From Actinomycetota bacterium (GTDB lineage: Bacteria; Actinomycetota; CADDZG01; JAHWKV01; JAOPZY01), in assembly GCA_035765775.1 (NCBI GenBank), contig DASTWV010000017.1, forward strand, positions 1 through 64,000: a stretch of 64,000 nt of DNA. The letters run 5' to 3'. This document shows, in pieces, positions 8,323 to 38,092 of this stretch. Every line of letters starts with the position of its first letter. Within the stretch, counting starts at the first letter, position 1. The notes below the pieces were generated by a model, which was not told the origin of the DNA, ran no database searches, and saw only the letters and a list, made by a program, of their open reading frames with translations. A program made the translations under genes and the position numbers.

Positions 8323-9075
8323 TCAGCGCTGCAGGTGCTGGCGGAGCGTCGAGCGGAGCAGGAGGCCCTTCAGGCGGGAGGAGAGCTTGGCGAGGTCGGA
8401 CAGCGACTGGACGGCCCGGCGCCGGCTGTCGTTGGACCCGCCCCGGGGCACGACCGCCTGCTCGAACAGACCCGCCTCCCGCTCGGCGAAGTGCCGGTAC
8501 ATGCGCAGGTGGCGGGGCTCGATGCCCACTTTGGCGAAGTCCCGGGCGATCTTGGCGATCATCAGGTCGTCTTCGTCGTAGAAGACGCTCCCCTCCAGCG
8601 GATGGGCGTCGATCAGCCCGTATTCCTGCAACTCCTTCAGCTGCTCGGTGGCCAGGCCGCTGGCCGCCGCCAGCTCATCGAGGCTCAGGTGGAGCCCGCC
8701 GACGGGCGTGTCGAGGTCGTCCTCGGGTGCGTAGGGCACGGTGCTGGGCGCCGGCGTCCCGCTGGCGTCGGTCCCGGTACTGTCCGCCCGAGCCGGAGCG
8801 GGGGCCGCCGGGGCTTCGGCACCATCCGCCTCGAACTGCTCGAGCTTGCGCCGGATGATCTTGAGCGGCATGAAGTTGTCGCGCTGCAGGCGCAGGATGT
8901 ACCGCAGGCGGGCAAGGTCCTGTTGGTAGAACTTGCGGTAGCCCGAGGGCGTGCGCTCCGGCTCGATGAGCCCCTCCGCCTCCAGGAAGCGGATCTTGGA
9001 GACGGTCACCTCGGGGAACTCCTCGCGCAGGGACTTGAGCACGTCCCCGATGCTCATGAAGGGGCGGACGCTCAC
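8323..9075 (-). CDS. ftsR: MerR-family regulator FtsR-like (Rv1828 type)
   Basis: 250 residues. The N-terminal MerR helix-turn-helix (residues 6-80) contains SIGDVLKSLREEFPEVTVSK and RTPSGYRKFYQQDLARLRYI. A Pro/Ala-rich linker of about 50 residues leads to a second helical domain with LSLDELAAASGLATEQLKEL and FYDEDDLMIAKIARDFAKVG. This layout is that of FtsR of Corynebacterium and Rv1828, reported to activate ftsZ expression. The GTG start overlaps the FHA gene stop (GTGA), so the phosphopeptide-binding FHA protein and this regulator are translationally coupled, as in other actinobacteria. Confidence 0.88.
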   Translation of the reverse strand: MSVRPFMSIGDVLKSLREEFPEVTVSKIRFLEAEGLIEPERTPSGYRKFYQQDLARLRYILRLQRDNFMPLKIIRRKLEQFEADGAEAPAAPAPARADSTGTDASGTPAPSTVPYAPEDDLDTPVGGLHLSLDELAAASGLATEQLKELQEYGLIDAHPLEGSVFYDEDDLMIAKIARDFAKVGIEPRHLRMYRHFAEREAGLFEQAVVPRGGSNDSRRRAVQSLSDLAKLSSRLKGLLLRSTLRQHLQR

Positions 9076-19369: not shown

Positions 19370-19932
19370 TGGCGCACCGCCAGCCGACCGAGACGCACGC
19401 CCCGGGCGAAGGAGATCCCGACCCACACGGCCACGAAGCCGGCCAGCAGGCTCACGACCGCGTACACCAGCCCCACCCCGGCGTGGCCGTCCTTGGCGAG
19501 GAGGTCGGCCTCCACGGCGAACGTGGAGTAGGTGGTGTAGGCGCCCAGGAAGCCGGTGGCGATGAAGGGCCGCAGGTACCTGGTGGGCGGGAACCGTTCC
19601 AGGATGAGGACGAGGATCACCCCGAGCGCCAGGCTCCCCGAGATGTTGGTCCAGAACGTGGCCCAGGGGAAGCCGTCCCTGGCCACATGGATCAGCTGGG
19701 CCACCTCGTAGCGGGCGGGGGCCCCCAGGGCGGCGCCGAGGGCGATGGCGGCCAGGATGCCGGGGCGCAGCCCAGGCGGGACGCGCGCCCCCGACGGTTC
19801 CGGCAGGGAGCTGTCCCGATCGGGGTCGATCGGCAGCTGCGGATCGTGGTGGGTGAGGTGGAGGTGGTGGGCGGCGTCCTCGTGGCGGCTCAACAGCGGG
19901 CTCCTGTCCGGCGTCTCGTCGGCAGGAGCCAT
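19366..19932 (-). CDS. crcB: Fluoride channel Fluc/CrcB, subunit 2, with His-rich N-terminal extension
   Basis: 188 residues, about 60 more than a standard CrcB. The C-terminal 125 residues form the channel domain with WATFWTNISGSLALGVIL and ATGFLGAYTTYSTFAVE. The extra N terminus is hydrophilic and histidine-rich (HEDAAHHLHLTHHD), possibly metal-binding or simply disordered; such extensions occur in some actinobacterial CrcB proteins. The ATG at 19932 follows a short gap after the FMN reductase, and the stop overlaps subunit 1. Confidence 0.88.
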   Translation of the reverse strand: MAPADETPDRSPLLSRHEDAAHHLHLTHHDPQLPIDPDRDSSLPEPSGARVPPGLRPGILAAIALGAALGAPARYEVAQLIHVARDGFPWATFWTNISGSLALGVILVLILERFPPTRYLRPFIATGFLGAYTTYSTFAVEADLLAKDGHAGVGLVYAVVSLLAGFVAVWVGISFARGVRLGRLAVRQ

Positions 19933-20005
19933 CAGCCCGGGTGGGCGGTTTCGGCGAGCTCCATCGCCGCGCAGCCGGGGGAGTATAGCGGGAGGCGCCG
20001 GCGGG

Positions 20006-32580: not shown

Positions 32581-34953
32581 CTATTCGGCCTGCAGGGCGG
32601 CCCCGGGCCGGATCCGGCGGGCGGCCAGGGCGGCGGGCACGGCGACCAGGTTGGCCACCACCACGGCAGCCGGCAGGAGCCCGGCCACCAGCACCAGGGG
32701 CACCGAGGGCCGGACCACCACCCCCAGCCCGCCGGCTACCACCGACCAGGCCCACCGGCCGAGGGCCACGCCCAGCGGGATCCCCACGATGCTCGCCACC
32801 AGGGCGGTCGTCGTCGCCTGCCAGGAGACCAGCCACGACACCTGCCGGGGCACCATCCCGAGCGTGCGCAGCATGGCGAGCTCCCGCCGGCGCCGCCGGA
32901 CAGCGCTGAGCACCAGGTGCAGCGTCGTCGCCAGCGCGATCAGGCCCAGCAGGCCGGCGAGGATCTCGGGCACCGAACGGACCTGGGCGAAGTTGGCCAC
33001 GTCGGCGGGCTGCGCCGCCGGGTAGACGTTGGCTGACGTGGTCACCGCGTCCTGCAGCGTGGCCAGCTTCCGGGCGGCATCCACCCCGGGGCGGAAGCGC
33101 ACGAAGATGTCGGAGGGCGGCGGGACGGGGCCGAAGTCGGGCCCGGCGAACGAGAGGGCGTAATCGACAAAGCCGGGAGCCAGGACGGCGCCCTTGCCCA
33201 GGCCTTCGTTGTCGCCCACCGAGGGGAGGATGGCAACCCCCACGATGCGCACCGGCACCGGAGGGATCGGGGCATTCTCGATCTCGAGGCTGACCCGGTC
33301 GCCCACCTGCAGATGGACCTGGCGGAGGGTGGTGGCACCGATCGCCACCTCGTCCCGCGCCCGGGGCAGGCGCCCGGACAGCACGACCGGCTGGATCGAG
33401 CCGGACACGGCTTCCTGGCGCTGCCCGCCGAAGGTCTGCCCGCCGATCCCGAGTGCCAGCTGGGTGTCTCCCACGGTGACCGCGGCGATCTCGGGGTCCC
33501 CCTCGAGGAGAGGCAGGATCGGGCGCGCGTCACTGATGGGGCCGTTGGCCACCGCCATGATGTGGGCGTCGAAGTTGGCGCCGTACAGGGCGGGGTTCGC
33601 CAGCAGATGGTTGAGGCTGCCGCCGTAGGTGAGGGCGGCGGCGATGGCCCCCACTGCGATCCCGATCGAGGTCAGCGTGGTCCGCACCGGCACCGCGGTC
33701 GGCCCCCGCCCGGGGGTGAGGGCCATCCGGATCCCCGTCCCGGCCACCAGGGGCAAGCCGCCGAAGGGGATCCGGCCGGCGAGGCTGCCGGCGGCGGTCT
33801 GCCCCCGCCCGCGGGCGGCCCGGCGGAACCCCAGGGCCAGCGTCAAGGCCGCCAGACCCAGCACCACAACCGGGACGCCCAGAGCGCCGAGGCCCAAGGC
33901 AACGGCATCGAGCGCGAAGCCCGGGTGCGGCTCCGCGATGCGGGCGGTGCCGATGGGCAGCAGCGGAGAGGCCGCTGCCGCCAGGATCACCGCCGCGGCG
34001 GCGCCGACCGCGGCGGCCAGCACCATACGGACCAGCCCGGCGGCCACCAGCTGCCCCGAGGTCATGCCCAGCGCCCTCCGGATCTCGGCGGCGCCGGCTT
34101 CCAGGGCTGCCTCCCGCGCCAGGAGCTGGCCCAGCACCAGGGCGGAGGCCAGGGCCACGAAGCCGGCTACCAACCACAGGGCGTCGGCCTGCAGGCGGAG
34201 GGAGCGTTCGGTGTTGATGGCCGACTCCGCCGAGCTCTGGACGAAGAGGCTCTGGACGCCGGGAGTGGGCCCGTTGAGGTGGGTGGCCAGGGTGTTGATG
34301 TCGCGCGCCCCGCGGCGCAGCCGGAGGGTGAGGGTGGGGAAGGCCTCCGGGGCAAGCTCCCGGCCCACGGGGGTCGAAAAGAACCCCGGCGACAGGTAGA
34401 CCCCGTTGATCGAGCTGGAGGCCAGCGGCGGGAATTCCCCCGGGGATGCCTCGACGCCCACCACCGTGAAGGTGACCGGCAGCGGGGCGCCGTCCGGGCC
34501 GTCGAAGGGGATGGCGAACCGGCTCCCCACCGACAGGTGGTGGGCGTCGGCCAGGGCAAAGGGCACCACGACACCCTGGGGATCCGAGGCTTTCACGTTG
34601 TGCCCGGCCAGGAACTTGAACCGATCGAGGCTGACGCCCATCCGCCCGTCGGTGACGATGGCGGCGGCGTACTCGGGCCCCACTGTCGGAACTCCCTCCA
34701 CGACGGAGGCGTCCGTCACCTCCGGGAGGGCCACCACGTCGGCCGCGGTTACGGTGGTGCCGCCCAGGTAGAGCCCGGCGTCGCCCGCCCGCTGGGCGAT
34801 GAGGAAGCGGGGGTAGGCGGTCTCCGTGCGCCGGGCGCCGGCGGCCAGGGCGATCACGGCACCCCCCGCCACGGCGATCACCACCACCAGGGACACCCAG
34901 AAGCGCGCCCGGGCAGCCAGATCGGCCCGGGCGACCATGAGCACCGACTTCAC
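32581..34953 (-). CDS. FtsX-like ABC transporter permease, orphan
   Basis: About 790 residues from GTG 34953 (ATG 34938 is the alternative; neither has a clear ribosome binding site). Two FtsX/MacB-type permease modules: a membrane helix near residue 20, a large extracellular MacB-PCD-like domain (about 45-240), three helices (about 255-390), a second extracellular domain (about 450-640) and three terminal helices, with LAMLRTLGMVPRQVSWLVSW as the coupling region. No ATPase gene is adjacent, although such permeases need one. It lies downstream of the ECF sigma/NHL pair on the same strand and could belong to its regulon. Confidence 0.8.
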   Translation of the reverse strand: MKSVLMVARADLAARARFWVSLVVVIAVAGGAVIALAAGARRTETAYPRFLIAQRAGDAGLYLGGTTVTAADVVALPEVTDASVVEGVPTVGPEYAAAIVTDGRMGVSLDRFKFLAGHNVKASDPQGVVVPFALADAHHLSVGSRFAIPFDGPDGAPLPVTFTVVGVEASPGEFPPLASSSINGVYLSPGFFSTPVGRELAPEAFPTLTLRLRRGARDINTLATHLNGPTPGVQSLFVQSSAESAINTERSLRLQADALWLVAGFVALASALVLGQLLAREAALEAGAAEIRRALGMTSGQLVAAGLVRMVLAAAVGAAAAVILAAAASPLLPIGTARIAEPHPGFALDAVALGLGALGVPVVVLGLAALTLALGFRRAARGRGQTAAGSLAGRIPFGGLPLVAGTGIRMALTPGRGPTAVPVRTTLTSIGIAVGAIAAALTYGGSLNHLLANPALYGANFDAHIMAVANGPISDARPILPLLEGDPEIAAVTVGDTQLALGIGGQTFGGQRQEAVSGSIQPVVLSGRLPRARDEVAIGATTLRQVHLQVGDRVSLEIENAPIPPVPVRIVGVAILPSVGDNEGLGKGAVLAPGFVDYALSFAGPDFGPVPPPSDIFVRFRPGVDAARKLATLQDAVTTSANVYPAAQPADVANFAQVRSVPEILAGLLGLIALATTLHLVLSAVRRRRRELAMLRTLGMVPRQVSWLVSWQATTTALVASIVGIPLGVALGRWAWSVVAGGLGVVVRPSVPLVLVAGLLPAAVVVANLVAVPAALAARRIRPGAALQAE

Positions 34954-35088
34954 TGCGTGGTCCAGGTCTGCACAGCGACCAGATTGTGCCCCGTAGCGGG
35001 CGGCAGCGGGAGGGAGCCACCACGAGACCTGGGCGGGTGCCACCACCACCCCCGGGCGTGCGTGGCCCATGGCGGCGTCAAGAGCCCA

Positions 35089-36816
35089 CTAAACGTCACC
35101 GCACGGCTGCCCACCCTTGATCTCAATCACGGTCGCCGTCGGGGCGCTGCTGGCGAACTCGATCGCGAGCGTCCCGTAGGTGCCGCGCACCGAGATGGTC
35201 CCGCCATGTGCCATCGTGAAGGCGCTGGGCGGGTACAGCGCCTGCGCCTCGCCCAGCTGCATCCCGAGCGTGACGCCGGCTTCGGTCTGGAGGCGCGGCA
35301 CAGCGGTCCCGGTGGGGGGCGCTGCAGCCCCGAGGCCGGCAAAGCCTCCGGGGTTGTACCGATACCCGTGGAAGGTCCCCCCCTGGAACTCGACCGACAG
35401 GTCATGCCACTCGACCTCGGTGGTCCCCGAGCAGGCCCCCGGTTCGGTGCCGGTGGGCGGACCGAAGACCTGGGTCACGGCGTTCACGGTCGCCGCCTGG
35501 ATCTCGTTCACGCCGACCAGTCCCAGCCCGTCGGGGCCGAGGACCAGGCTAGCAGGGGTGCGCGAGCTGGCCGGGGAGGGCACCGCTGCGGCTGCAGCCT
35601 GCTCGAGCACCTTCGGCTGCCCGCCGGGCGCAATAGCGACGATGGCGGATTGCTGGGCAAAGCCGAAGTCGGGATTCGTGTCGGTGTAGATCGTCCCATC
35701 CGGCCCCACCGCCAGGCCGGCGGGCAGGAAGTTGGCCACACCGCCCACCGCCGCCGGGCCGAGCACAGCGAAGTCGACCAGGGTCTGCATCCCGGTGGGC
35801 GACAGCGTGACCAGCCTCTGCTGGGTGAACGCGACCACGGATCCGTCCGGCCGCTGGGCGAAACCGCCGCTCCCCTTGGGGTAGAAGCCCGTTTCCGCCC
35901 CGATGGGGGCGGTCATGACTCCCGCCGGCGTGATCATCAGCAATGTCTTGGTGTTCGACCCGAAGACATAGAGGTCGCCGGCCCGGTCAAAGCCGAGCGC
36001 GTGCGGGCCATCCGGCGATGCCTGGCCTGCCGGGCCCCCGAGGCCCACGACGCCGGCCTTGTCCGACCTGCCCGCCACGTCGGTGAGGGTGCCGTCCGCC
36101 TCGAGGCGCACCACCTCGTTGTTGCATGGGGCAGCGATGTACAGGCGCCCACCCGGACCGAGCGCGACATCGCTCGGGCCGCCGAGGGGCGCCCCCACAG
36201 CCCGGGTGCCGGTGGGGATCAGTGGGCAGCTCCCTGCTGCCCCACCCCCGGCGACGGTGGTGATGATGCCGGCCGGGGAGATCGCCCGCACCCGGTTGTT
36301 CTGGACGTCCGCCACGTAGAGAGTGCCGTCGGCTCCGACCGCCATGCCGCCGGGCCCGTTCAGGGCGGCCTGCTGGGCGGGACCTCCGTCGCCCGAGAAT
36401 CCTGGCCTCCCCGTCCCGGCCAACGGGAGGAACGTGCCGTCGGGCGCGCGCTGGAGGATCTGGTTCTTGGCGGCATCGGCGACGACCAGGTCGCCATTCT
36501 CGGCAACCGCCAGGGCTCCGGGGTGGCTGGGGCCGGGTTCTTCCGGCGAAGGAACATTCGAGTGGGCCCCGGGGCTGCTGATGGCCCCCGATGGCTGGGA
36601 CGGTGGCCCAACCACGTGGACCTGCCTTCGCCCGTTCCCGGGCAGGATCGAGAAGATGCCGGCGGCGATGGCCACCACTGCGATCGCTCCCGCCCCGGCC
36701 ACCGCCCGCCGCCGGCGGCTCCGCAGCCTCTGGCCCCGCCGCTTCGCTTCGTCCAGAAGCGCCTCCAAGCCGACTCCGGGCAGGCCCTCGGGCGGCTCTT
36801 CAGGGCGTCGATGCAT
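35089..36816 (-). CDS. Membrane-anchored NHL beta-propeller protein, possible anti-sigma partner
   Basis: 575 residues. A cytosolic basic N terminus (1-37), one membrane helix (about 38-58) and an extracellular region with repeated NHL-type strands such as GPGGMAVGADGTLYVADVQNN, GPSDVALGPGGRLYIAAPCN and PAGLAVGPDGTIYTDTN, which form a propeller to about residue 400, then a separate C-terminal domain. The start overlaps the sigma-factor stop by 17 bases. Membrane proteins encoded right after an ECF sigma are commonly its anti-sigma factor, but the 37-residue cytosolic part is short and no zinc-binding anti-sigma motif is visible, so this role is inference. Confidence 0.75.
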   Translation of the reverse strand: MHRRPEEPPEGLPGVGLEALLDEAKRRGQRLRSRRRRAVAGAGAIAVVAIAAGIFSILPGNGRRQVHVVGPPSQPSGAISSPGAHSNVPSPEEPGPSHPGALAVAENGDLVVADAAKNQILQRAPDGTFLPLAGTGRPGFSGDGGPAQQAALNGPGGMAVGADGTLYVADVQNNRVRAISPAGIITTVAGGGAAGSCPLIPTGTRAVGAPLGGPSDVALGPGGRLYIAAPCNNEVVRLEADGTLTDVAGRSDKAGVVGLGGPAGQASPDGPHALGFDRAGDLYVFGSNTKTLLMITPAGVMTAPIGAETGFYPKGSGGFAQRPDGSVVAFTQQRLVTLSPTGMQTLVDFAVLGPAAVGGVANFLPAGLAVGPDGTIYTDTNPDFGFAQQSAIVAIAPGGQPKVLEQAAAAAVPSPASSRTPASLVLGPDGLGLVGVNEIQAATVNAVTQVFGPPTGTEPGACSGTTEVEWHDLSVEFQGGTFHGYRYNPGGFAGLGAAAPPTGTAVPRLQTEAGVTLGMQLGEAQALYPPSAFTMAHGGTISVRGTYGTLAIEFASSAPTATVIEIKGGQPCGDV

Positions 36817-37315
36817 CAGGCTCCTCCTTCAGGTAGTCAGGGCCGAGGCTGGAGCGCAGGGCAGCGATCCCCCGGTGGATGTGCACCTTCACTGCACCCG
36901 GTGAGACACCTAGGGCATCAGCCACCTCCCGCTCCGGCATATCGACCAGGTAGCGCAACGCCACCGCTTCACGCTGGCGGCGTGGGAGCCGGCGAAGGGC
37001 CTCCACCATCAAGCGGCGCACAAGGATCTCGTCTTCCATGGATCGCGCGATCTGCTCCCCGGGGCGCACATTCGGGAGTTCATGGAGCCGCCGGGCCTGG
37101 GCGAGCGCCTGCCGGAAGGTAGTCCGCAGCACCCACCCGTCCCGCCAGTGCAGCTTCGAGACCCTGCCCCACCGGGCATACGCTGCCGCGAACGCCTCCA
37201 AAGCGGCGTCCTCGGCCCCACCGGAACCGGCAACCCGCCGGGCTACCGCCACCGCCCGAGGAAAGCAGGCCCGGAACCAGGCGTCATACTCGTCATCCTG
37301 CGAAATCGGTGACAT
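36800..37315 (-). CDS. ECF RNA polymerase sigma factor (SigE-like)
   Basis: 171 residues. Region 2 (about 10-75) includes FRACFPRAVAVARRVAGSGG and DAALEAFAAAYARWGRVSKL; region 4 (about 105-160) includes LPRRQREAVALRYLVDMPER followed by EVADALGVSPGAVKVHIHRG. It resembles the SigE/SigM-type group of actinobacterial ECF factors. ATG start; divergent from the site-2 protease gene. The transcription unit continues into the NHL gene and perhaps the FtsX-like permease. Confidence 0.88.
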   Translation of the reverse strand: MSPISQDDEYDAWFRACFPRAVAVARRVAGSGGAEDAALEAFAAAYARWGRVSKLHWRDGWVLRTTFRQALAQARRLHELPNVRPGEQIARSMEDEILVRRLMVEALRRLPRRQREAVALRYLVDMPEREVADALGVSPGAVKVHIHRGIAALRSSLGPDYLKEEPDASTP

Positions 37316-37423
37316 CGCTCAGTAAAGGCTTGCCGCCCACACTCCGGTTGACACGCCTACCAAACTCCGATGGGTTCGGCCGGCACCCGGCTGTCGCCCA
37401 GGGCGTCCCGCCGGGTGCCGCAT

Positions 37424-38092
37424 ATGCTTCCGGCCGTGCTCCCGTTCCTCATCGGCCGCGACTACACCGGCTTCATCATCATCGGCGTCGTCCTGGTTGT
37501 GGCCATCTGCCTCCACGAGTTCGGGCACGCCGTCGCCGACGACCTCCAGGGGGATCCGACGGCCCGTCTGGCCGGCCGCCTGACCATCGACCCCCGGGCT
37601 CACCTCGATCCCTTCGGTGCTCTGATGATCGTCCTCGTCGGCTTCGGCTGGGGAAAGCCGGTCCCCATGTCGCCGAACAGCATGCGGAGCCGGCGCTATG
37701 GGGCGGCCTTCGTGGGGATCGCCGGGCCGCTCGTCAACATCATTCTGGCGGTGGCGACCGCACTCCTCGCTCGCGTGCTCAGGATCCCCCTGGTCATCGG
37801 GTTTGGGGCAATGCCCGGCTTCAGCCTCGCATCCCAGTTCGCCTCGGCGTTCCTCTATATCAACGTGCTACTCGTCATCTTGAATCTCATCCCGATTCCC
37901 CCACTCGACGGGTCTCGGGTTCTAGGGTCGCTCCTCCCGCCCGACAAGCAACGCTTCATCTACTTCATGGATCAGTGGGGCTTCCTCATCCTGCTGATCG
38001 CCGCGCTGTTGGTCCTGCCCCACCTTCTCCCCCCCGTCGCCAACAGCGGCGAGCGCTGGCTGCTTAATCTCATCGGCTTCCACGAGGCCTGA
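37424..38092 (+). CDS. Site-2 protease family M50 metallopeptidase
   Basis: 222 residues with five or six membrane helices. Zinc motif HEFGH (His31, Glu32, His35) in the first-to-second helix and the third ligand Asp162 in NLIPIPPLDG. These enzymes cut substrates inside the membrane, including anti-sigma factors. The gene is divergent from the ECF sigma and NHL genes, making those candidate partners, but M50 genes also occur beside trpS-scpAB in many Gram-positives without any such role. ATG 37424 is preferred; ATG 37370 would add 18 residues of low-complexity sequence. Confidence 0.85.
   Translation: MLPAVLPFLIGRDYTGFIIIGVVLVVAICLHEFGHAVADDLQGDPTARLAGRLTIDPRAHLDPFGALMIVLVGFGWGKPVPMSPNSMRSRRYGAAFVGIAGPLVNIILAVATALLARVLRIPLVIGFGAMPGFSLASQFASAFLYINVLLVILNLIPIPPLDGSRVLGSLLPPDKQRFIYFMDQWGFLILLIAALLVLPHLLPPVANSGERWLLNLIGFHEA

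Follow-up and report, generated by a model that had tools for sequence, protein, structure and literature searches.

The stretch of DNA analysed here, referred to as the window, spans 64,000 nucleotides and contains on its minus strand a gene for an ECF sigma factor of SigE-like type (171 aa; 36800-37315, -), identified by Pfam and NCBIfam profile matches, followed by a gene for a 575 aa single-pass membrane partner (35089-36816, -), for which Pfam NHL and PDB relatives indicate an NHL propeller and a C-terminal domain outside the cell. The two genes overlap by 17 bases (36800-36816, -), as had been pointed out in an earlier note made from the sequence, and an overlap of the same length is found in the nearest orthologous pair (L040, with the sigma stop codon at 9048 and the partner ATG at 9032). 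An FtsX-like permease gene (32581-35070, -; Pfam FtsX, 52.2 bits) lies directly downstream of the NHL gene and represents a possible operon member or target of the sigma factor; none of the 79 homologous sigma loci considered below has such a gene. No ATPase gene was recognised adjoining the permease gene in the part read. The site-2 protease gene that the earlier note had placed divergent from the pair was confirmed as an M50 gene without accessory domain (37370-38092, +; Pfam Peptidase_M50, 55.7 bits). Elsewhere in the window a fluoride riboswitch (RF01734, 51.1 bits) is located at 19916-19977 (-).

The sigma factor matches Pfam Sigma70_r4_2 (59.1 bits), representing region 4, and the NCBIfam model sigma70-ECF with 57.4 bits, which exceeds the cut-off of 42.9, and is on these grounds a member of the ECF sigma factors (group 4); region 2 received no Pfam call. 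Judged by profile score, the SigE family (SigE-fam_strep, TIGR02983) is its nearest named subfamily, of which it is not a formal member as its 115.3 bits fall under the cut-off of 141.55. The partner begins with a cytosolic tail of about 38 residues, the last 15 of which carry a net charge of +9, and residues 1-38 (LEALLDEAKRRGQRLRSRRRR; 36703-36816, -) constitute the candidate sigma-binding element on the basis of comparison with the partner encoded by a genome of the same family (G001) and of co-variation. The tail is followed by a transmembrane helix (residues 39-57; 36646-36702, -; hydropathy 2.32 over 19 residues), this and all other helices being called from hydropathy alone, and by the propeller, which scores 55.3 bits against the Pfam NHL repeat and is related to PDB chains of teneurin, SOQ1 and PknD, all being NHL or related propellers. 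Profiles, charge and hydropathy thereby confirm the plan of basic tail, single helix and outer propeller previously attributed to this protein, and the accompanying caveat that the short tail contains no recognised anti-sigma domain was borne out, since nothing was matched in Pfam or NCBIfam. The tail profile gave chance-level matches only when compared with PDB chains, the HxxxCxxC motif is missing from the partner, and neither the N-terminal nor the autocleavage domain of RsgI was matched in Pfam, the partner matching NHL-type and propeller models only. With no recognised anti-sigma domain in its tail of 38 residues, the partner falls outside the canonical anti-sigma factors of class I and of the zinc-finger type. 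The helix contains an AA motif, which is not diagnostic of site-2 cleavage. Models of the NHL protein by itself (AlphaFold, pLDDT 39) and of sigma factor and tail fused across the gene overlap (AF2, pLDDT 46) had a confidence too low for use.

An ECF-like promoter of the form TGTCAACC-N19-TTTA is predicted at 37324-37353 (-), approximately nine bases ahead of the ATG of the sigma gene, based on its uniqueness and on its counterpart in G001, where the sigma gene is preceded by TGTCAACC and TTTA at identical spacing. The genome of 3.6 Mb contains a single copy of this pattern, at the sigma gene of the window, as against 0.01 copies expected in the window, and its uniqueness implies that the strict regulon may not extend beyond the operon. 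TGTCAACC is also present ahead of the sigma gene of L073, from another family, while nine other sigma genes of the census described below have an upstream TGCAACC as compared to about one in shuffles, and in several upstream regions TGCAACC is followed by CGT in an ECF-like arrangement. The position of the predicted promoter suggests autoregulation and a near-leaderless transcript.

The divergent M50 gene and its neighbourhood

The M50 protease retains the motifs HEFGH and PPLDG, and its start may be near 37427, as orthologues align from about residue 20. Orthologues of this protease are encoded by all eight genomes of the order, as compared to two of the eight for the sigma factor (E <= 1e-20). 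In each of seven relatives belonging to the order, M50 and trpS are immediate neighbours in divergent orientation, trpS being followed by scpA and rluB, with scpB being detected in some of these neighbourhoods, and no sigma, NHL or FtsX-like gene is present between M50 and trpS-scpA in any of the seven. This agrees with the reservation of the earlier note that M50 genes also accompany trpS-scpAB elsewhere, and in the window the sigma, NHL and FtsX genes are thus set between two neighbours of long standing. The nearest sigma orthologue, that of G001 (62% identical), is located on a different contig from that of its M50, and no protease adjoins the G001 sigma/partner pair. In a survey of gene neighbourhoods, a check of co-occurrence that had been suggested for the three families, an M50 gene of either the window type or the RseP type was found at none of the 79 homologous sigma loci (666 kb searched), while identical searches recovered the control M50 genes of the window's own genome. 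Across relatives, the neighbouring site-2 protease showed no linkage to the sigma/partner genes that would speak for its part in regulated intramembrane proteolysis of the partner.

These results bear directly on the system envisaged in the earlier note, in which the sigma factor is freed when its divergent neighbour, the M50 protease, cleaves the NHL protein. It is established that site-2 proteases cut anti-sigma factors of the single-pass type (PMC10202637), and the protease of the window is adjacent, divergent and intact in its catalytic motifs; however, its trpS-scpA context in the relatives is devoid of sigma and NHL genes, the G001 pair and the surveyed loci do without an adjoining M50, and nearly every anti-sigma protease reviewed belongs to group I and bears a PDZ domain (PMC10202637), a homologue of the RseP/Rip1 type with HETGH being encoded elsewhere in the window's genome (G000:C26). 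We consider cleavage by the divergent M50 protease to be very improbable. Of the proposed three-part set the sigma/NHL pair is upheld, whereas the protease as third member was rejected owing to its trpS-scpA linkage, its differing distribution in the order and its absence from the sigma loci: the M50 gene belongs to the trpS-scpAB neighbourhood and is not part of the sigma/NHL system.

A retained tail and exchanged outer domains

The 79 sigma loci comprise 60 obtained by searching 24 genomes of the class for SigE-family members and 19 obtained by sigma homologue searches. Three of the 79 are too near a contig end, leaving 76 assessable; partners were classified by eye from a list that also includes the window and one further paralogue, and uncultured assemblies account for several of the named records. 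At 69 of the 76 loci the sigma gene adjoins or overlaps a gene for a single-helix partner with a short tail, zinc-finger anti-sigma proteins were encoded at four (L175-L177 and L181), and no partner was visible at three. The commonest overlap between sigma and partner genes is four bases. The tails range from 31 to 53 residues (median 39) and have a basic end (median +5) with an arginine-rich stretch last, many of them appearing to have two helix-like blocks with a proline-rich link; in the window the juxtamembrane block is clear and the first block is missing. The outer parts are diverse, the named domains being NHL, Kelch, WD40-like, BNR, germination-type, PKD-like (weak) and DUF4232, with many others matching no named domain. 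In G001 the tail and helix are retained (36 of 88 aligned positions identical to the window partner, over residues 17-103) and DUF4232 replaces the NHL propeller, while the genome of the window also encodes a paralogue (C31) that combines the retained tail and helix with an outer BNR/Ycf48-type domain. The same layout of tail and helix is found on Streptomyces plasmids and in Nonomuraea; partners in the Streptomyces records are annotated as hypothetical or PASTA proteins, and two streptomycete partners gave weak, below-cut-off matches to anti-sigma models spanning tail and helix. The window pair is accordingly one member of a large, widespread set of actinobacterial systems that share this kind of tail and differ in the sensor joined to it. 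The view that a propeller sensor departs from the standard anti-sigma layout holds insofar as it is unusual, but it is not isolated, as Kelch, WD40-like and BNR propellers occupy the equivalent position. At a further locus, L184 (VAXF01000165.1, 3370-4356 and 4925-5947), the gene for a partner with a DUF1996 sensor adjoins a gene for another DUF1996 protein, and the resemblance of the sensor to the neighbour's product may hint at what is sensed.

Similarity between tails was found to follow similarity between the sigma factors, with a rho of 0.28 for 67 pairs (0 of 1000 permutations), of 0.24 when thinned to 54 less redundant pairs (0 of 1000 permutations), and of 0.20 (4 of 1000 permutations) for tails minus their first six residues, these being left out because they are able to overlap the sigma gene. 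For the same 67 pairs the helix showed no correlation with sigma similarity (rho 0.01), and rho was 0.04-0.08 for length-matched outer segments of 40 residues and 0.03 for the whole outer part, where rapid divergence of the outer domains could conceal a correlation. The co-variation fits a tail that recognises its own sigma factor, albeit that the effect is modest and relatedness is not fully removed. A horizontal swap of the whole partner gene was also considered and was rejected as the tail stays with the sigma factor.

Proposed mechanism and alternative readings

The gene overlap, the retained tail and the single family architecture make the sigma factor and the NHL membrane protein a well supported candidate signalling pair. 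Based on these sequence comparisons, we judge it fairly probable that the two genes form a unit in which an autoregulated sigma factor is held by a membrane anti-sigma factor with a short tail and a propeller sensor. In such a system the arginine-rich tail of the NHL protein would probably hold the sigma factor at the membrane, and sigma release would follow once the outer propeller and the C-terminal domain perceive a ligand or a stress. The tail would perhaps be removed by a protease of general function, for instance the enzyme of RseP/Rip1 type whose gene lies elsewhere in the genome. Once free, the sigma factor would use TGTCAACC-N19-TTTA to transcribe the operon to which it belongs, with the NHL gene and possibly also the FtsX-like one.

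The partner could instead be an activator or a co-regulated product. An activating or scaffolding role, such as recruiting the sigma factor to the membrane or protecting it, would be in keeping with a short, basic tail that matches no known anti-sigma domain, and the data give coupling without its sign. However, single-pass partners downstream of ECF sigma factors are inhibitors as a rule, and four loci of the census have classical zinc-finger anti-sigma proteins at the equivalent gene position, for which reason we regard such a role as unlikely. Alternatively, the NHL protein may be an effector of the sigma operon, acting in the envelope or in transport together with FtsX and making no contact with the sigma factor, a reading in keeping with the high diversity of the outer domains, the FtsX-like permease gene downstream and the secreted DUF1996 protein that adjoins the DUF1996 sensor at L184; yet it is the tail and not the outer domain that stays with the sigma factor, and the plan of tail and helix recurs with many unrelated outer domains, making a pure effector role, in our estimation, quite unlikely.

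Relation to known anti-sigma systems

The favoured reading, that of a short-tail anti-sigma factor with an outer sensor, has a close functional parallel in RsgI of Clostridium thermocellum, an anti-sigma factor with divergent sensor domains for which RseP and ClpXP steps have been shown (PMC12203970); for the window pair such steps would be assumed by analogy. Both have an N-terminal cytosolic part, one helix and divergent outer sensors, and in both the partners are paired with sigma paralogues. The window pair is RsgI-like in its working, no homology being claimed, in that the tail is kept, the sensors are exchangeable and the sigma factor is cognate. In contrast, SigI is not an ECF sigma factor while that of the window is, and RsgI differs further in having periplasmic autocleavage and in the greater length of its cytosolic domain (residues 1-54 were used for RsgI6), the autocleavage residing in a domain of its own; the window partner is not a member of the RsgI family. 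That a very small two-helix anti-sigma domain suffices is known from CnrY (discussed in PMC7406223), which contacts both domains of its sigma factor CnrH; the census tails, too, often look two-blocked. The tail of the window fits CnrY in length but has the juxtamembrane block alone, its sequence matches no PDB chain, and the outer domains of the present family are large and exchangeable. Zinc-finger (zf-HC2) systems are similar in that a sigma gene is followed by an overlapping membrane-protein gene, and both types occur in one census, although the window partner is without HxxxCxxC and without an anti-sigma domain match. The CU044_5270 family (NF038083), which has SigE-family sigma neighbours, includes a partner encoded in the window's own genome (L089) with the same tail and helix plan as the window partner; its model, however, covers one outer domain type, and its family function is unnamed.

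Taken further, the census may represent a so far unnamed class of minimal anti-sigma factors that extends across the phylum Actinomycetota, its members combining a sigma-specifying tail some 40 residues long with a single membrane helix and a freely exchanged outer sensor, a proposal that we put forward tentatively and at somewhat less than even chances; in the same guarded sense, an arginine-rich helix would end the tail and the NHL propeller would be one plug-in. The literature searched contained no paper on propeller anti-sigma factors, and partners of this kind may already appear in the main ECF sigma classification, entered there as putative anti-sigma proteins. Should the tail be the anti-sigma element, a regulator could be assigned to many sigma factors of Actinomycetota for which none is recognised, and what the cell senses would be indicated by the protein that follows each tail, while a modular tail would be a simple handle for tests of sigma specificity and for sensor building.

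Among the partners of the census, those of L164, L165, L171, L174, L178 and L179 form a coherent subgroup with longer tails (44-53 residues), an AVADWLG-type segment after the helix, and outer parts that are alike within the subgroup and unlike the rest. At L190 (NZ_CP045548.1, 2279-3456), on a Streptomyces plasmid, two SigE-family sigma genes are arranged in tandem, the second of which is followed by a gene of the tail and helix type.
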